A DNA stretch of 64,000 bases from Roseibium aggregatum (GTDB taxonomy: Bacteria; Pseudomonadota; Alphaproteobacteria; Rhizobiales; Stappiaceae), in NCBI RefSeq assembly GCF_014692675.1, contig NZ_JABFCZ010000002.1:62001-126000 (forward strand), in the 5' to 3' direction. The notes beneath the pieces are model-generated. The model was not told the DNA's origin. It saw only the letters and a program-made list of their open reading frames with translations, and did no database searches. This document shows, piece by piece, positions 3 through 44,237 of this stretch (position 1 is the stretch's first letter; every line of letters starts with the position of its first letter). Both the position numbers and the translations under genes were made by a program.

Positions 3-3000
3 CAGATCGATGACTGTCCGAGCGGTGATTTTTCACGAACGCCGTCGTGCTGGAATTTCGCCGATTTCCGCCGCCGCGTCTGGGGTGTCGGTGTGCGCCA
101 GGATGTGGCCACGGGCGAGGTGCGTCTTTACTACGCCGTCTGGAGCAGCCAGGGGTTCGGTAGTCCCGACTATGCTGCCGCCGGCGAGAATGAAAAGAGA
201 AATTCGGTCTGGTCGGTGGGACTCGATCAGGCGGGGAACTTCAATCCCGGTTCCGTGCGCCGCGAGTTCTTCCTGCCCGATTTCTTCCGCTCGCCTGATG
301 CCATAGCGCGCGCCGGGCGCAGCCATCCTGTCGCGGATATCGCGTTCCCGGCTGTGAGCGAACAGAACGTGATGCTGGTCGCCGAACGCGGCGGTGTCCG
401 CAATCTCGGCCTGGCTGCGGAAAATGCCTTTTCCTATCCCGATGAGTCCCGGGTTCTGCGCTATGAGCTGGGCGAAACCGGTTCCTGGCAGGGAGTGGGG
501 CGCTATGACGTCGGTTATTACGACCGCGGTGAATCCGGTCCGCCCTACATCAGGGCCGGAGCCGCCGGCGGTGTTTCGTTCGGCATGGGGTACAGGGAAA
601 ACGGCGACGCCGATCCGGAACAACCGGACGGGTTTGTCTGGATGAGCGGTGACGGGCTTTGCTCGCCACGGGGAGAATGTTTCGATTCCAGTGCCAACGC
701 GCACGATGATGGCTCTGAGGTTTCCGGCCTGCAGGGGCAGGCTGCACGGCCCTATGAGGCGTTCGAGCCGCTCACCGCGTTCCAGCCCTATCCTGCACCC
801 GGACCCGTGACCCCTTCAACCGGGCCGGACAGCGCTTTCATGGTCGACGTGGACGTCAATACCGACGCCAACGGAGACTATTCTGAGGAAAGCCGGACCA
901 GGAACGACGCCACCCGTGTGGGCGATGTCGCCGTGTTCCAGCCGCTCCCGGCGGATGGGGAACTGATGCCCGTGGATGAAGGCCCGGTCGTTGCCGAGTG
1001 GCCGGAAGGCCTGCCCGAGGAAGGCTGGATCCCTGCGCCGCCACCCGACGACGGCTGGTTCCTGCCGCCGCCGTTCCCGCTCGATACAGACCTTGCGATC
1101 CGCAAGACCGGCCCGGCGCAATGCCAGGAAGGGGTGGAGTGCACCTATGTGATCCGGATCCGTAACGTGGGGTCCGTTGCCTATACAGGTCCCCTGGCGA
1201 TCACCGACACGATGCCGGCCGGGGCAACCCTTGCCTCGACATCCCCCGGCTGGCACTGCGTGCCCGGCGGGGCGACCTTCAGTTGCATCACCAACGCGCC
1301 TGCGCTTCTGGTGCCGGGCGCAACCGCGGCGATCGAGGTCAACATTCTGCTTCCTGCCGATGTTCCCGGGCCGAGCGTTCAGAACTGCACGAATATCGAC
1401 TGGTTCGAAATGGGAACCGACGACGGACCCGGCGACGGCAACGACGATGACTGCGTCACGACGCCGGTAACGCAAGGGTTTGACCTTGGAATTGCGAAAA
1501 CCGGACCTGCTCAATGTGCGGAAAACGCCGATTGCACGTTCCAGATCGTCGTTCAGAACTTCGGCCCCGGAGAGTTCAACGGGGTTCTGGCCATTCGCGA
1601 CACGCTTCCCGCAGGTGCAACTTTCGTGGCTGCGGTCGGTGCGGGAACCTGTTCACCGTCCGGCGGGGATGTGAACTGCCTGACCGGGAATATCACCTTG
1701 CCATCGGGAGGGACCGCCGGTCTGATCTTCCGGCTTCATCTCCCTGACGGAATTGCTGGCGGAACGATCACGAACTGCGCGGAAATCAACTGGGCCGCCA
1801 TGACGTCCAATGACGGGGCGGCAGATGTCCATGCCGATTCCGATTGTCATACGGTCAATGTCATCAACAAGGCGGGCTTCTTCGATCTGGCGATCGCAAA
1901 GCGCGGTCCGGCCCATTGCAATGCCGGTGGTGACTGCGAATACGAGATCACCATCGCCAATATTGGGCCTGACGACTATACCGGCGAACTGCATATCCAG
2001 GATAATCCGGTGACACCGGGTCTCAGCTATGTCGGTGTTGCCGGGCCAGGATGGGGCTGCGGCGCGGCCGTTCCGGTCAACTGCAACCAGGCTGGCGGAC
2101 CCCATACCCTGCACCCGGGCGATACCAGGACGATGCACGTCACGCTGCATTTTCCCAATCCGGTCGCGACAAATCCGGTGATCAACTGCATGGAATTCCG
2201 CTGGGGGGCGCCAGGCATGCCGCTGGATGACAATCCGGCGCCTGGAGCCGGGGATTCCAGCGATCAGAACTGCACCGCGACGTTTGTCGATACCGGCTTC
2301 GATGCGGAGATCGCAAAAACCGGTCCGGCGGACTGCTATGAAGGTGCCGCTTGCGACTTCACGGTCAGCGTGACGAACAACGGGCCGGCTGTGATCGACG
2401 GTATTCTGGCCGTGACCGATACTTTGCCGGCCGGTTCGACGCTCGAAGGCGTAGATGGCGCAGCTTTCTGCAACAGCGCGGCTCCGGGGACAACCACCTG
2501 CTTCGTGACCGGACCCATTGCTTCCGGAGCGACACATGACATCACGGTTCACACGCGTCTGCCCGATCCGGTTGCCGGCAATACGGTGGAGAACTGCGCG
2601 TCGATGGAATGGGGCGCAACGCCGCCTGCCTGGATTATCGGTTCGCCTTATTCTGGCGACGATAATGCCGCAACCGACGGGCCGGCCTGTGCCACGGTGC
2701 ATGTGCTGGCCGCCGATCTGGCGCCCTGGGGGGCGACCACCTGTCAGCTCGGCTCTTCCTGTCCCATCGAGGTTCAGGTGGACAATCGTGGCGGGCGCCG
2801 ATTCCAGGGGGCTGCGGGCCTGCACGGCATGCTCGATCCCGGCGTGACCATCAGCAGCATCGAGAGCCAGACACCCGGCTTTGATTGCAAGGTGACCGGC
2901 ACCGGGCAGTATGAGTGTGAGGGCTCCAACCTCACGCTGAAACCCGGAGCGTCGGCCAAGATCCGAATGGTTCTGGAAATTCCGGCGGACTTCCCCCACA

Positions 3001-4637
3001 GGCGGATCATTCACCGCAAGGAAATGATCTGGCCGGATCAGAAGGTCAAGGATCCGAAGCCGGAGAACGATCGCCATACCAGCACGATCATGATCGTGCA
3101 GCCTGAACAGCCGCAGGAAGCGCGTCAGCCGGAAGAGCCGCAGGAGGAGACACCCCCGCCGGCCGAGCCGACGCCTCCGCCGGTGTCGACGGCGGAAGCC
3201 CCGGATCTGTCGGTCGACAAGAGCGCGGCGCAGGGCCGTTGCGACGCGGGCCGGCCATGCGACTTCCGGGTGCGGATCACCAACGACGGTTCTGCCTCCT
3301 ACGTCGGGCCGCTGCGGGTAAGCGACGAGACCGATCCTCCCGGTCGGCTGACGTCGTCGGGACCCAGACCCTGGCGTTGCGATGCCACAGGCGGCGGGTA
3401 TGACTGTACTCATCCCGCAATGACGCTTGCGCCCGGCGAATCTGTTGACCTGTTCCTGACCATGGCCGTCGGCCGCGGCAGCGGTGCCCGGAGCGTCCGG
3501 AATTGCGCGAGCCTGGTCTGGAACGATGCGGACCAGGTGAGAGCGGTCCAGATTGCTCTGAACCGTCTCGGCTTTCCGGCCGGGCGGCCGGACGGCCAGG
3601 TCGGTCCGAACACCCGCGGTGCCGTGCGCGATTTCCAGGAAAATGCCGGTCTGCCGGTCACTGGGCGGATAGACGAAGCGTTGCTGCGCCGTCTGTTCGG
3701 CTCCTGGGGAGCCGGTGACGGCAATGCCGCGAACGACAACAGCTGCGTCACGATCGGTCTCGATCAGGCTGCGGAACCGGCGCCGGTCTGCGGACCGGGG
3801 CAGGAAACCATCCGGCCGTCACAGGTTCAGCGGCTGAGGGCGCAAGGTTGGCGCATCGATCGTTTGACAAGCGGCGGGCAGACCATTTTCTGCGGGTCAC
3901 CGCCTGTCGTCGTCGAGCCGCCGCTTGCCTGTCCTCCCGGTTATGAGGCCTACCGCAACAAGAACCGGATCCCGCGCAATTCGGACGTGCTGCGTCGCAC
4001 GCGCGGCAACGAGGTCCTGTTTTGCGCCCGGCCCAGGCCGCAGGCGGAGACATGTCCTCCCGGCTACCGGCAGGTCAGCCGCCAGCGGGCCAAGGACCTT
4101 GTCCGGCAGGGCTGGGACATCCGCCAGGTCGGCAACCTGATGTGCGCCCGGCCGGTTGAGCGTCCTGCGCTGCAGTGCCCTGGCGGTTACAAGCCGTATC
4201 CGAGCCGGAACCGGATTCCGCGCGGCTATGAAGTGCGGACCCTGCGCAGCGGTGGCCAGGTTCTCTACTGCGCCCGGCCGAGGCCGCAGGCGGAGACGTG
4301 TCCGCCCGGCTTCCGGCAGGTCAGCCGTCAGCGGGCCAAGGACCTTGTCCGGCAGGGCTGGGAAATCCGGCAGGTCGGCAGTCTGATGTGCGCTCGCCCC
4401 GGCAGGCAGGTCACGCCGACCCAGCCGACCAGGCCAAACTGCACCGGAGGCCGGGTCTGGGATGCGCGCCGCAATTCCTGCGTCTGTCCCGGGAACACCC
4501 GTTGGGATCCGAAGCGGAACCGCTGCCTCCAGCCCCAGGTGCTTCGGCCCCAGGTGCAGCCGCAGGTGCAGCAGCCGCAAAGACAGCCGCAGATCATCAC
4601 ACCCCCGCTGCAGTTGATCGTGCCCCGGGTGCAGTAG
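3..4637 (+). CDS. Large DUF11-repeat surface/envelope protein with peptidoglycan-binding module (5' end outside window)
   Basis: The frame is open to the left edge and reads coherent protein before the first internal GTG (position 93), so the gene starts upstream. About 350 residues of non-repetitive sequence come first, resembling the end of a surface beta-propeller-like domain. Six DUF11-type beta-sandwich repeats follow, starting near 1087, 1482, 1884, 2301, 2715 and 3204. Most open with a D-L-A-I-x-K-x-G-P type motif and carry conserved Cys pairs. A Pro/Glu-rich linker lies before the sixth. A peptidoglycan-binding fold (about 3525-3708) is nested inside the sixth repeat. The C-terminus has two near-identical about 75-residue Cys-rich units (about 3929-4151 and 4175-4398) and a Gln/Pro-rich tail. 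Role is inferred to be extracellular or cell-wall associated; no enzymatic motif is seen. It is convergent with the qhp operon. The DUF11 assignment is firm, the function is not. Confidence 0.8.
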   Translation, partial: QIDDCPSGDFSRTPSCWNFADFRRRVWGVGVRQDVATGEVRLYYAVWSSQGFGSPDYAAAGENEKRNSVWSVGLDQAGNFNPGSVRREFFLPDFFRSPDAIARAGRSHPVADIAFPAVSEQNVMLVAERGGVRNLGLAAENAFSYPDESRVLRYELGETGSWQGVGRYDVGYYDRGESGPPYIRAGAAGGVSFGMGYRENGDADPEQPDGFVWMSGDGLCSPRGECFDSSANAHDDGSEVSGLQGQAARPYEAFEPLTAFQPYPAPGPVTPSTGPDSAFMVDVDVNTDANGDYSEESRTRNDATRVGDVAVFQPLPADGELMPVDEGPVVAEWPEGLPEEGWIPAPPPDDGWFLPPPFPLDTDLAIRKTGPAQCQEGVECTYVIRIRNVGSVAYTGPLAITDTMPAGATLASTSPGWHCVPGGATFSCITNAPALLVPGATAAIEVNILLPADVPGPSVQNCTNIDWFEMGTDDGPGDGNDDDCVTTPVTQGFDLGIAKTGPAQCAENADCTFQIVVQNFGPGEFNGVLAIRDTLPAGATFVAAVGAGTCSPSGGDVNCLTGNITLPSGGTAGLIFRLHLPDGIAGGTITNCAEINWAAMTSNDGAADVHADSDCHTVNVINKAGFFDLAIAKRGPAHCNAGGDCEYEITIANIGPDDYTGELHIQDNPVTPGLSYVGVAGPGWGCGAAVPVNCNQAGGPHTLHPGDTRTMHVTLHFPNPVATNPVINCMEFRWGAPGMPLDDNPAPGAGDSSDQNCTATFVDTGFDAEIAKTGPADCYEGAACDFTVSVTNNGPAVIDGILAVTDTLPAGSTLEGVDGAAFCNSAAPGTTTCFVTGPIASGATHDITVHTRLPDPVAGNTVENCASMEWGATPPAWIIGSPYSGDDNAATDGPACATVHVLAADLAPWGATTCQLGSSCPIEVQVDNRGGRRFQGAAGLHGMLDPGVTISSIESQTPGFDCKVTGTGQYECEGSNLTLKPGASAKIRMVLEIPADFPHRRIIHRKEMIWPDQKVKDPKPENDRHTSTIMIVQPEQPQEARQPEEPQEETPPPAEPTPPPVSTAEAPDLSVDKSAAQGRCDAGRPCDFRVRITNDGSASYVGPLRVSDETDPPGRLTSSGPRPWRCDATGGGYDCTHPAMTLAPGESVDLFLTMAVGRGSGARSVRNCASLVWNDADQVRAVQIALNRLGFPAGRPDGQVGPNTRGAVRDFQENAGLPVTGRIDEALLRRLFGSWGAGDGNAANDNSCVTIGLDQAAEPAPVCGPGQETIRPSQVQRLRAQGWRIDRLTSGGQTIFCGSPPVVVEPPLACPPGYEAYRNKNRIPRNSDVLRRTRGNEVLFCARPRPQAETCPPGYRQVSRQRAKDLVRQGWDIRQVGNLMCARPVERPALQCPGGYKPYPSRNRIPRGYEVRTLRSGGQVLYCARPRPQAETCPPGFRQVSRQRAKDLVRQGWEIRQVGSLMCARPGRQVTPTQPTRPNCTGGRVWDARRNSCVCPGNTRWDPKRNRCLQPQVLRPQVQPQVQQPQRQPQIITPPLQLIVPRVQ

Positions 4638-4694: not shown

Positions 4695-5327
4695 TTAAGC
4701 GCTGCGCCGTTCGCGGCCGCGATAGCGGAAGGCGGTTTTCAGCGCGTCCTGGGTGTCTGCCGCCGATCCCTGCCAGTTTTTCGCCAGAAGTCCGGCCATA
4801 TGGGCGGCTGCCGCACTTGCGCCACGGATGTCAGGATGATCTGTGGCGATCGGACAGGCACCGAAGGTGGCTTGGGGCAGGTCGAGGCGGGAGAGGTCGC
4901 CCGGTTGGCAGCGGGCATCGCCCTGGACGGAGAGGACCCCGCCGATGGCGGCCGGGAAAACCGGATCGCCGCGCGCGGGCGCCGAGGCGACGACCAGGCT
5001 TCCGGCTTGCAAGAGTGCTTTCGTCCTGGCGGTCAGTTCCACCGATGAACGGGCCATGCCGAAGGAACAGAGCACGATCTCCGGCGGGTCTTCGGCCAGC
5101 CATTCCAGGGCGTCGCAGACGGTTTGAGCAGATGTCGAAAGACGTCCGGGAAACACCACTGCGTTGACGAAATGAACCTCGCCGGCCTGAGCTCGGATCG
5201 TTGCGGCCATGGCTCCGGCATGATGTTCGGCGGCGGGGGATCCATCCGGATCAAAGAGCCGGGCCTGTGCGATCAGCCCCGGAAAATCTGCGGGAAGGGC
5301 GCCGTCGATCAGGCCGATGCGGATCAT
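4695..5327 (-). CDS. qhpE: QhpE, subtilisin-like leader peptidase for QHNDH gamma subunit
   Basis: 210 aa, short for a subtilase and without a signal peptide, as expected for the cytoplasmic QhpE that removes the N-terminal leader of the cross-linked gamma subunit QhpC. The catalytic triad can be read as Asp8 in LIDG, His36 (or His35) in EHHAG, and Ser171 in GASAAAAHMAG, which corresponds to the GTSMAAPHVAG motif of subtilases. The start codon overlaps the qhpF stop in an ATGA, so it is translationally coupled and is the last gene of the qhp operon. Identification rests on the triad plus operon context; the substrate assignment follows from the Paracoccus denitrificans system. Confidence 0.85.
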   Translation of the reverse strand: MIRIGLIDGALPADFPGLIAQARLFDPDGSPAAEHHAGAMAATIRAQAGEVHFVNAVVFPGRLSTSAQTVCDALEWLAEDPPEIVLCSFGMARSSVELTARTKALLQAGSLVVASAPARGDPVFPAAIGGVLSVQGDARCQPGDLSRLDLPQATFGACPIATDHPDIRGASAAAAHMAGLLAKNWQGSAADTQDALKTAFRYRGRERRSA

Positions 5328-7204
5328 GGCTTTGGCCTTTCGAAAGCGGCAAGATCGACTTCCTCGTCGAACGTACCGTAACGGTTCGCGTCGCCGTGGG
5401 TGACGACAATCCTGGTCCGGTCGGCAAAGCGCGTGTCGATGGCGGCCATGATCCGGGAAACGCGGCCGGCATCAACCTCCGACAGGCTTTCATCAAGGAT
5501 CAGCACCCTGAACGGCTGCAACAGGGCACGGGCTAGGCACAGCCTTTGGCGTTCGCCACCGGAGAGATTCAAGCCGCCCTCGCCGAGCGGGGTTTCGAGG
5601 CCGGCACCGGGTTCCTCATGGCTGGATGAATGCGGGACGGGAGCCCCTTGCTCCCGTCTCCCCCCTTGAAGGGGAGATGTCGGCGCAGCCGACAGAGGGG
5701 GGGATGCGGCGGTCGTCCGAACGTGTGGCTCACCCCCCTCTGTCACCCTTGGTGACATCTCCCCCTCAAGGGGGGAGAGGGGTGTATGCGGAGCGGCTTT
5801 GCCATGGATTCCGAACCGCTCGTCCAGCTCCACAAGGCGGAGAACGTCCAGCATCTCTTCTTCGCTCACCTCGGGTGATCCGAGGCGGAGGTTGTCGGCG
5901 AGGGTGCCGGAAAAGACATGACCCTTCTGCGGTATCAGGGCGACCGCGCTGCGGATGTTGGCAAGGCGGAGGCGGCGCAAATCTGTGCCATTGAGAAGGA
6001 TTGCGCCAGCATGCGGATCGTCGTGGCGTTGCAGCAGGCTCAGGAGTGAGGACTTGCCGATCCCGGAAGGACCGGACAAGCGGAGCTTGGTGCCGGCGGG
6101 GATGGTGAGGCTGACGTCCTCAAAGAGGGGCATCTGGCCAGCGGGCGAATAGGAGATGCCGGACAGGACAAGGTCGCCGTCGCCATCTGCGAGCGGCAGG
6201 GGATCGGCGGGATCGCGAACGTCGGGGGCGGCGCTCATGATTTCGTCGAGCCGGTCGAGAGCGGCCTTCATGCGTGCCTGACCGTGCCAGAGCGAAATCA
6301 GCGACTGCATCGGCCCGATTAGGAAGCCGAGATAGGCGGTGAAGGCGATCAGGGAGCCGAGCAGCATGGTGCCGTCGATAACGGCCAGGCCTCCAACCAG
6401 AAACACCGCGCCGCGGAGGACTGCGGTCAGCACCATGGGCACGGCGCGGGTGACCTCGTTCCAGACCTGTGCCGACAGGAGGGCCGAAATCAGGCCCTGC
6501 TGGCGAAACTCGATCTTTTCCGAAGCAGCCTTTGTTGCGTTGAGGGCGCGCAGTGCACCCAGGCCTGTGATGGTTTCAGCCAGACCCGAAGCAAGCTCGC
6601 CGCGCGCCTTGCGCACGCCGCGGGCCTTCTCGTGAGTGACCGGACGGGCCTTTGCGAAGAAGACCAGCTCTACCGGTGCCAGCACCAGCGCCAGCACGGC
6701 GAGCTTCGGCGCCAGAACGAACAACATGACGAGCCCGCCGATGAGCCTGAGCAGGCTGCCACCGCCGTTGACCAGGGCGGCAAAGGTGAACTGCTGCACC
6801 TCGCCGGCATCGCCGTCGAGCCGACTCATCAGCTCGCCGATCTTCTGCCGCGCCTGCCAGCGCGGCGATTGCGCCAGGATACGGGCAACGGCCGCCCGGC
6901 GCAGATCTGCCAGCAGCCTGGCGGAAAAGCGCAGGTGAAGCAGGGAATTGACCGCGCCGAGCGCAAGGGCCGCAAGCCCGACTACGAACAGGGCCAGAGC
7001 GAAGGTGATCAGGGCCTGCTTGTCATGGGCCATCAAGCCCCGGTCGATGACAAGCTTGGTCAGCCAGGGCGGGATCAGTGCGGTGCCAGCGGCGACCAGC
7101 GACAGACCAAACAGCGCCGCCAGCGGCCAGCGATATGGCAAAACGAGAGGCGCGAGCCACAAGGCCTCGCGCATGCCGAACAGGCGTTCCAGCACGACGC
7201 GCAT
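5324..7204 (-). CDS. qhpF: QhpF, ABC exporter (fused TMD-NBD) for QHNDH gamma subunit, with in-frame repeat insertion
   Basis: 626 aa from the ATG at 7204. The same frame extends to 7387 but that part is only translated palindromic repeat, so the inner start is preferred. The N-terminal half is an ABC exporter membrane domain with several hydrophobic segments. The C-terminal half is the ATPase: Walker A GPSGIGKSS (around residues 380-388), Q-loop ALIPQKG, signature LSGGERQ, Walker B VLILDES and an H-loop VVTHGD. Between the Q-loop region and the signature, about 60 residues (roughly 467-529) do not belong to the family; they are a translated palindromic element and include PLSPLEGEMSPRVTEGG. 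The frame stays open. The family role is export of QhpC to the periplasm. The gap to qhpB upstream is 463 bp and filled with repeats. Confidence 0.85.
   Translation of the reverse strand: MRVVLERLFGMREALWLAPLVLPYRWPLAALFGLSLVAAGTALIPPWLTKLVIDRGLMAHDKQALITFALALFVVGLAALALGAVNSLLHLRFSARLLADLRRAAVARILAQSPRWQARQKIGELMSRLDGDAGEVQQFTFAALVNGGGSLLRLIGGLVMLFVLAPKLAVLALVLAPVELVFFAKARPVTHEKARGVRKARGELASGLAETITGLGALRALNATKAASEKIEFRQQGLISALLSAQVWNEVTRAVPMVLTAVLRGAVFLVGGLAVIDGTMLLGSLIAFTAYLGFLIGPMQSLISLWHGQARMKAALDRLDEIMSAAPDVRDPADPLPLADGDGDLVLSGISYSPAGQMPLFEDVSLTIPAGTKLRLSGPSGIGKSSLLSLLQRHDDPHAGAILLNGTDLRRLRLANIRSAVALIPQKGHVFSGTLADNLRLGSPEVSEEEMLDVLRLVELDERFGIHGKAAPHTPLSPLEGEMSPRVTEGGEPHVRTTAASPPLSAAPTSPLQGGRREQGAPVPHSSSHEEPGAGLETPLGEGGLNLSGGERQRLCLARALLQPFRVLILDESLSEVDAGRVSRIMAAIDTRFADRTRIVVTHGDANRYGTFDEEVDLAAFERPKP
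5658..5777. repeat. Type A palindromic repeat pair inserted inside qhpF
   Basis: Two inverted copies of a 45-46 bp unit: 5658-5703 (CTCCCCCCTTGAAGGGG, then a GTCGGC/GCCGAC hairpin, then AGAGGGGGG) and 5733-5777 in reverse orientation. The pair spans 120 bp, exactly 40 codons, and is flanked by further GC-rich sequence (ACGGGAG...CTCCCGT, about 5634-5657) that recurs at the other type A site. It lies within the ATPase domain coding sequence and keeps the frame. Confidence 0.85.
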
Positions 7205-7234
7205 GAACGCATGCCGAGGTGAGGCCTGATCAGT

Positions 7235-7389
7235 CTCCCCCCTTGAGGGGGAGATGTCACCGAAGGTGACAGAGGGGGGTAGCGGCGTTTGCTTCATGCT
7301 CCGGTGTTGTTTCATGTTGTGAGGCCGGACACCCCCCTCTGTCCGCTGGTGCGGACATCTCCCCCTCAAGGGGGGAGACGGGAGCAAGG
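7235..7389. repeat. Type A palindromic repeat pair at the 5' end of qhpF
   Basis: The same inverted-pair architecture as the copy inside qhpF: unit 7235-7279 and the inverse unit 7332-7377, followed by GACGGGAGCAAGG. It sits immediately upstream of the chosen qhpF start and would be transcribed as strong hairpins between qhpB and qhpF. The frame is open through it, which creates a spurious N-terminal extension of qhpF. Confidence 0.8.
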
Positions 7390-7514
7390 CGTAGGGCCTC
7401 GTATCTCACGCGGTCATTCCCGATATTCAGGCCTTTCGCGGCGTCGCGGCTTTCGTTTCCGCAGGAGCTGCAGTCGCGGCCTGCCTCATTCTGGTTCCTT
7501 TTGCCTCACGAAAT

Positions 7515-7624
7515 GTGAGGTGGATTGGATCACCCGGACTGCGCCGGGTGATGACGGTGTTTGAGGGAAAGCGTTGCCACATTTCCCAGAGTCATTGCCC
7601 GGCGTAGCCCGGGCAATCTACTCG
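7515..7624. repeat. Type B palindromic repeat in the qhpB-qhpF gap
   Basis: Two short palindromes: CACCCGG-actg-CGCCGGGTG within 7515-7559, and GCCCGGCGTAGCCCGGGC within 7591-7624. The same pair, in the same order, occurs at 44128-44237. Together with the type A pair it fills the 7205-7667 gap, in which no gene is seen. Confidence 0.75.
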
Positions 7625-44036: not shown

Positions 44037-44127
44037 ACTGTCCTGCACGATCGTCTCCGAAAATGGGGCCCGCGGCGAATAGGCCGCCGCGGGAGTGGGT
44101 ACCCTCATTCCGCCTTTCCGGTTTGCT

Positions 44128-44237
44128 GCGAGGTGGATTGGATCACCCGGACTGCGCCGGGTGATGACGGTGGCTGGGGAGATCCTGTCATTCCCCCTCC
44201 GGGGCCATTGCCCGGCGAAGTCCGGGCAATCCACTCG
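44128..44237. repeat. Type B palindromic repeat in the dctP-dctQ gap
   Basis: GATCACCCGGACTGCGCCGG (44150-ff) and GCCCGGCGAAGTCCGGGC (about 44210-44227) form two hairpins in the same arrangement as at 7515-7624. It occupies most of the 44037-44330 gap; no gene is seen there. Confidence 0.75.

Follow-up and report, generated by a model that had tools for sequence, protein, structure and literature searches.

Introduction

Interspersed palindromes of alphaproteobacteria include RIME and Bru-RS, and REPINs are reportedly inverted doublets that are dispersed in a genome together with single-unit fragments. The Rickettsia palindromic elements (RPEs), as described in the part of the source available to us, are palindromes of 105–146 bp that occur both as in-frame parts of protein genes and in intergenic DNA, and a guanylate kinase with an RPE insert was translated and active, with a changed substrate affinity (PMC2229807). 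REPs of the GTAG and CGTC superfamilies are short palindromes that often form head-to-head dimers and in some instances lie within a gene, which may even contain two of them; in the accessible portion of that survey, those of the CGTC type are mostly alphaproteobacterial and apparently have no dedicated transposase (Di Nocera et al, 2013, PMC3733652). According to the available text of PMC2817692, inverted REPs flank RAYT genes.

An earlier note, made from the letters alone, had reported a palindromic repeat in frame within the ATPase domain of the ABC exporter QhpF of Roseibium aggregatum. We followed up this claim in the window (the whole stretch of DNA that was analysed, 64,000 nucleotides) and in related genomes. 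Very probably, a dispersed non-coding palindromic doublet inserted into qhpF long ago and was tolerated, and a second copy later cut off the native start of the same gene.

Results

A palindromic element lies in frame in the QhpF ATPase domain

The window contains a minus-strand qhp operon encoding, by NCBIfam and Pfam, QhpE, QhpF, the beta and gamma subunits of QHNDH, the radical SAM maturase QhpD and the alpha subunit. The QhpE, alpha, beta, gamma and QhpD genes all score over their NCBIfam cut-offs, and the exporter was assigned to QhpF by its ABC membrane and ATPase domains inside the qhp operon. QhpF is the ABC exporter credited with delivering the crosslinked gamma subunit into the periplasm, as stated in the part of the source at hand (PMC7876137). 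The features of this region are as follows.

4695..5327, minus strand: qhpE, subtilisin-like protease (NCBIfam NF049966, score over the cut-off); overlaps the end of qhpF
5324..7405, minus strand: qhpF open frame, ABC exporter of the QhpF type (Pfam ABC_membrane and ABC_tran), counted from the last upstream stop
5603..5812, minus strand: insert of 70 codons replacing 3–4, placed by QhpF alignment between a helix end (..DERF) and GLETPLGEGG-LSGGERQ
5657..5778: palindromic core of the element (arms 5657–5703 and 5732–5778, 28-nt middle)

The earliest start codon of the qhpF frame is TTG 7387, and the gene is 71–86% identical to 11 genes of the same genus and family. Elsewhere in the window, a 151-nt direct repeat (87% identical) lies at 4003–4399 within a long ORF (93–4637).

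The repeat in qhpF is a palindrome of ~160 bp, in frame and shortly before the LSGGERQ signature. Its inverted pair has arms at 5644–5702 and 5733–5791 that are 78% complementary with 30 nt between them, and the RNA fold of 5600–5810 on the minus strand reaches -118 kcal/mol (z = -6.9), which was equalled by 0 of 200 shuffles. As the earlier note had said, the insert lies in frame between the Q-loop region and the signature, and the reading frame is uninterrupted, with the ATPase motifs in place.

QhpF was detected in 13 of 101 genomes, our own included (E<=1e-100; one genome per species). The site is short in 10 of the 12 other genes, where 3–4 residues separate the end of the helix (..RF in most) from GLxT..GEGG, and the 70-residue insert is found only in our QhpF and in that of another species, G018. 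The alignment, one of the checks proposed in the earlier note, set the boundaries at 5603–5812 and revised its figure of about 60 added residues to a net gain of ~67 (70 codons against 3–4). QhpF of G048 (Breoghania) has an unrelated loop, 13 residues longer and without the repeat, which argues that this loop tolerates changes in length. A repeat-free homologue with a similar insert had been named as evidence against the note's reading; the G048 loop is such a case only weakly, and among the sequences read none has a repeat-free insert of ~67 residues. The length from Q-loop to signature was 40 in 13 loci, 41–42 in 3, 53 in 2 (Breoghania twice) and 107 in our own and G018, the motif pattern having matched 20 of 90 loci, several of which are the same genes from two collections. 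The open frame alone is weak evidence, because 20% of shuffles of 5601–5810 are also open in a given frame, while frame retention is above chance because G018 has the same insert with its frame kept.

In solved ABC exporters, the insert site corresponds to the linker before G-Y/F/L-D/E-T-x-x-GE-x-G-x-x-LSGG, a stretch that in QhpF is presumably the one called the X-loop. The best AlphaFold2 model of QhpF is modest (mean pLDDT 69, pTM 0.61, 13 sequences), and ABC exporters rank first in its Foldseek comparison with the PDB. Residues 501–560 have a mean pLDDT of 24–36 between blocks at 77–94, so that this second proposed check yields a predicted disordered loop between well-predicted flanks, probably at the surface of the protein.

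The element is a dispersed inverted pair with one supported host gene

In our own genome (5.66 Mb, 130 contigs), 53 BLAST matches to 5635–5805 at E<=1 merge into 16 dispersed copies, one rearranged copy and fragments, which bears out the earlier description of the repeat in qhpF as a dispersed palindromic inverted pair. Each of the 16 aligned copies is an inverted pair, the second arm being truncated in three, and short single-unit fragments also exist. A copy consists of two inverted units of ~47 bp, each made up of TCTCCCCCCTTGAGGGGGAGA, a GTC..GAC hairpin and then GAGGGGGGT, with a variable middle between the units. The core measures 143–147 bp with a middle of 49–53 nt in seven other properly measured copies (L002, where an extra unit precedes the copy, was excluded), and 122 bp with a middle of 28 nt in qhpF. 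The stem of the unit is TCTCCCCC/GGGGGAGA, without an AT start or a CCA tail. It is preceded by CGTC (13) or CCTC (8) in 21 of the 26 pattern-matched arms, from a total of 32 arms in the 16 copies, and this tag overlaps the TCTC stem. No Rfam family was found anywhere in the window at the gathering threshold. Matches to the element occur in 22 of 45 genomes of the genus (E<=1e-8), and G018 has 23 copies.

Three of our own copies (L018, L022 and L024, on contigs C63, C40 and C108) share a breakpoint and are each fused, at CCCCCTTG, to one common foreign sequence, and each contig ends 113 bp past the match. The foreign sequence is probably an insertion sequence using the palindrome as its target; REPs are said to be known IS targets.

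Several long frames cross the element in six-frame readings of the 16 own copies, 22 of the 23 G018 copies and 26 loci of other genomes. Ten of these frames were scanned in Pfam, with L009 (a 186-aa frame) and others outside the scan. Nine had no family and were taken as chance frames in GC-rich DNA, not as further in-gene copies; the tenth, from a relative, has a DUF559 domain downstream of the element within one open frame. Among the 16 own and 22 of 23 G018 copies, qhpF is the only supported gene that contains one. The genome search for other intragenic copies, also suggested in the note, thus returned the family and no additional supported host gene.

The insert is shared with another species and behaves like copies elsewhere

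The inserts of our genome and G018 are 89% identical over 210 nt, with no indels, no stops, the same ends and the same 28-nt middle, which is common to only these two among the copies measured. dN is 0.106 and dS 0.153 within the insert, and 0.082 and 0.676 in qhpF outside it (omega 0.12 over 578 codons); the N:S ratio of the insert differs from that of the rest of the gene (P = 0.002). Inside the insert, pN (0.098) and pS (0.139) show no difference (Fisher P = 0.46, with weak power at 23 changes), and these sequence comparisons thus give no detectable selection on its protein sequence.

The insert dS of 0.15, far below the 0.68 found elsewhere in the gene, sits awkwardly with an old insertion and could also mean a younger event, in which the insert arose after the species split and was copied between species or homogenised from other copies. 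We consider such a late origin improbable. Four-fold sites have diverged at 7/41 positions inside the insert, at 5/15 and 9/21 beside it and at 115/288 in the whole stretch before it; as the flanking sites show no drop relative to the preceding stretch, recent exchange reaching the flanks is argued against, and the 28-nt middle is unique to this pair among the copies measured. Moreover, other shared places look alike. The comparison of the two genomes covered nine pairs of copies, of which L009 and L014 have too little common flank to count as the same place and L002 was wrongly measured. At the shared places L003, L004, L005 and L008, where no gene is known, arms differ by 0–15% (the 15%, for L004, includes a misaligned end) and middles by 14–36%; in qhpF, arms differ by 2–6% and the middle by 18%. 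Because copies elsewhere show the same pattern, arm conservation appears to belong to the element itself. The two species carry the element in opposite orientations at one orthologous place (L026 and L170); this suggests inversion or replacement between the arms, and that such places can be rewritten.

The same pattern bears on whether the linker has been co-opted, for instance to modulate coupling near TPLGEGG or to bind another Qhp protein. The linker has been kept across a dS of 0.68, it is less diverged than the four-fold sites of qhpF, and it lies three residues before a conserved stretch, all of which would suit a function. Protein-level selection as the cause of the low divergence was nevertheless rejected, since copies elsewhere behave alike, with equally conserved arms. 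In addition, pN and pS do not differ at the power stated above, the linker is predicted to be disordered, and 10 of the 12 other QhpF genes lack it, so we hold co-option to be very improbable.

Taken with the sharing with G018, the omega of 0.12 elsewhere in the gene and the predicted disordered loop point to the insert being a tolerated passenger. The earlier note had left the choice between tolerance, altered coupling and a non-functional exporter; tolerance fits best, as G018 keeps both insert and frame, although omega between two insert-bearing genes says nothing about activity.

A second copy has separated qhpF from its native start

Considering damage to qhpF, the earlier note had dealt with the ATPase-domain insert and missed a second copy of the element at the 5′ end of the gene.

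7234..7378: second full copy of the element, at the 5′ end of qhpF; G018 has no copy at this site
7427..7489, minus strand: native start of qhpF, now cut off: MRQAATAAPAETKAATPRKA followed by TGA, corresponding to the N-terminus in G018, MRQAATAAPADAKAEASPRH
7526..7556, minus strand: short CGTC-type REP upstream of the native start, with CGTC, an AT-led 9-bp stem, a 6-nt loop and a CCA tail (criteria from the accessible part of PMC3733652)

The native ATG at 7489, with AAGGA upstream, is followed by an in-frame TGA at 7429–7427 and again at 7408–7406. In G018, the 5′ end of qhpF (MRQAATAAPADAKAEASPRHPLLRVVLERLFG) is uninterrupted and the start undisturbed. In what remains of our gene, the frame from TTG 7387 starts inside the inserted stretch; by eye, a strong ribosome site is lacking, with just GAGG 9 nt ahead of this TTG. 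Further in-frame starts are ATG 7315 and 7297 (in the middle of the element), 7204 and 7174. A target-site duplication was considered and set aside: AGGCCT on either side of the 5′ copy is a possible one, and the L006 place has no clean empty site in G018. The CGTC-type REP lies within a 53-nt repeat (7514–7566, repeat family D2) with a 92% identical copy at 44127–44179.

With its native start gone, our qhpF may not be made today, and the insert or the second copy could have inactivated the exporter, leaving qhpF a young pseudogene in this strain. The two in-frame TGA codons after the native ATG and the poor ribosome site favour this outcome. Against it, neither the motifs nor the remainder of the frame shows damage, omega is 0.12 between the insert-bearing species, the five other qhp genes score over their cut-offs, and G018 carries the ATPase-domain insert behind an undisturbed start. 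On balance we judge a pseudogene unlikely, though well within consideration; any loss of function is more probably due to the second copy than to the insert in the ATPase domain.

DUF559 genes accompany palindromic doublets

A RAYT (Y1 transposase, PF01797) was rejected as mobiliser, as none was found in our own genome (G000), G018, G153 or G243 by a search that was positive in 5 of 14 control genomes. A different gene recurs beside these palindromes. Within the genus, DUF559 is present in 22 of 45 genomes (E<=1e-5), and the same element family lies 24–67 nt upstream of the DUF559 domain in 14 of the 30 loci fetched (from 34 matches). These 14 loci are one ancestral place next to cysS, because their flanks are shared. 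In this unit the doublet is inside out compared with the dispersed copies, judging by three loci and the match order. L205 (G014) is a fifteenth locus with these flanks; its DUF559 is divergent, and the profile detects no element there. By eye, a palindromic doublet of different sequence (CCCCACCCCTAACCCCTCCCC.. type) occupies the same position (L205:1246–1500), as if gene and palindrome were changing together.

Downstream of cysS, viewed in 35 of the 45 genomes (the 30 loci most like the query and 5 chosen), the element and DUF559 occur together in 12, and a DUF559 of this kind is missing from 23. Among these 23, G019 has half a palindrome at the junction, in G001 a match lies 1.4 kb further along, and the profile finds none in 21; six of the loci were inspected, and G042 and G011 among them show eroded remains of the element. 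The element is present in 13 of 14 genomes with the cysS-linked DUF559 and in 9 of 31 without (P = 8e-5, ignoring relatedness), a count that is partly circular since in some genomes the copy counted is the one beside DUF559. This looks to be so for at least two of the three matches in G007 and both matches in G025; leaving these genomes out gives 11/14 (P = 0.003), and leaving out G009 and G016 too gives 9/14 (P = 0.047, relatedness again ignored). The weakening of this count and the addition of L205 pull the DUF559 reading in opposite directions, and our estimate is unchanged.

Across the order, DUF559 was detected in 73 of 199 genomes (E<=1e-20), and the 30 best loci were taken, 28 of them long enough for use. 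An inverted repeat (arm 25, 88%) lies within 600 bp of DUF559 in 16 of the 28, and at 600–1500 bp in one more, compared with 0 of 30 within 600 bp and one at 600–1500 bp for a control gene (HigB toxin, PF05015; P = 4e-7). A stricter setting (arm 35 at 83%) gave 11/28 against 0/30 (P = 9e-5); at the looser one, 12 of the 28 DUF559 loci had no inverted repeat within 600 bp. The palindrome beside DUF559 is dispersed in its own genome: that of G153 has 40 scored places there at 84–100% identity (126 candidates) and none in seven other genomes, and that of G243 has 19 places there, further matches in G129 and G095, and no match in G075, G000 or G018. Alphaproteobacterial plasmids gave a doublet beside DUF559 in 9 of 10 loci, chosen from 31 records (four from Azospirillum, two from one Sphingomonas strain), and by eye a single hairpin on either side in the tenth. 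DUF559 genes with doublets thus occur in several alphaproteobacterial families (L177–L236, L322–L331). On a Sphingomonas parapaucimobilis plasmid (L331), sufB and sufC are separated by the DUF559 gene, which has a hairpin on each side, as if it had been inserted in the suf operon.

In the samples taken, the sequence association between DUF559 and palindromes is clear; its meaning is a hypothesis, and DUF559 is a candidate partner enzyme. A Caulobacter DUF559 protein, VsrA, is predicted to be a Vsr-like mismatch endonuclease in the part of the source available (PMC12907096). Tentatively, and at rather less than even odds, DUF559 (Vsr-like) nucleases might be to a large class of alphaproteobacterial palindromic doublets what RAYT is to REPs: they would nick or resolve the hairpins of the doublets and thus spread or maintain them, and in-gene copies such as that in qhpF would be products from an ancestor that still had the enzyme. 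A present need for DUF559 is ruled out, as our own genome and G018 hold 16 and 23 copies with no DUF559 at E<=1e-5, which leaves at most a past role there. The inheritance of the unit in the genus as a single place and its inside-out doublet also speak against the proposal.

Discussion

On the history that we favour, a doublet of two ~47-bp two-hairpin units, head to head and REPIN-like, would have entered qhpF before this species and G018 diverged, in their common ancestor. Its target would have been a length-tolerant loop in the ATPase domain, three residues ahead of the conserved TPLGEGG stretch. The doublet either happened to have a length divisible by three and no stop codons, or came to that state later. 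The insert would be translated as a disordered linker rich in Pro, Glu, Ser and Gly, adding ~67 residues. Selection presumably kept the exporter working with no detectable action on the linker sequence, and the arms may stay alike through conservation or homogenisation of the element as DNA, wherever located. Later, in the lineage of this strain, the second copy would have hit the first ~20 codons and parted the gene from its native start, so that QhpF would now have to start inside or after the second copy, or is being lost.

Palindromes in frame within genes are a known kind, from RPEs in Rickettsia and intragenic REPs. The case in qhpF is, with good support, a new one, in the ATPase of an ABC exporter and with a second copy cutting the start of the same gene. 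Beyond Rickettsia, it offers a natural example in which a palindrome of selfish appearance is read within a conserved ATPase, and relatives with short and with filled sites are both on hand for comparison. The DUF559 neighbourhood may matter more, as a possible clue to how the elements spread and a concrete enzyme to test for CGTC-like repeats and their kin, although the elements here are not strict CGTC repeats. Searches by title and abstract start, with subscription papers and preprints outside their scope, did not find the link, and palindromic doublets flanking DUF559 genes are new as far as these searches reach.

Compared with known systems, the closest in behaviour is the RPE, likewise a palindrome in frame within a gene and also present outside supported genes, as the earlier note had proposed. 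We do not file the element as an RPE; the likeness is one of behaviour. The host also differs, being a GC-rich Roseibium, which we take to be free-living, and qhpF holds the only copy supported as in-gene among 16 own and 22 G018 copies. With RIME and Bru-RS the element shares interspersed palindromes, a likeness by description. Like the CGTC REP superfamily, it has the tag (CGTC, or TGTC/CCTC) at one end, but it lacks the AT-led stem of 8–9 bp and the CCA tail, and its unit differs from the REPs of Di Nocera in being ~47 bp long with two hairpins. As in REPINs, two inverted units form one doublet, dispersed and accompanied by single-unit fragments. Finally, as with RAYT, a gene stands beside the same palindromes here too, but it encodes a DUF559 nuclease (PD-(D/E)XK, Vsr-like) in place of a Y1 transposase.
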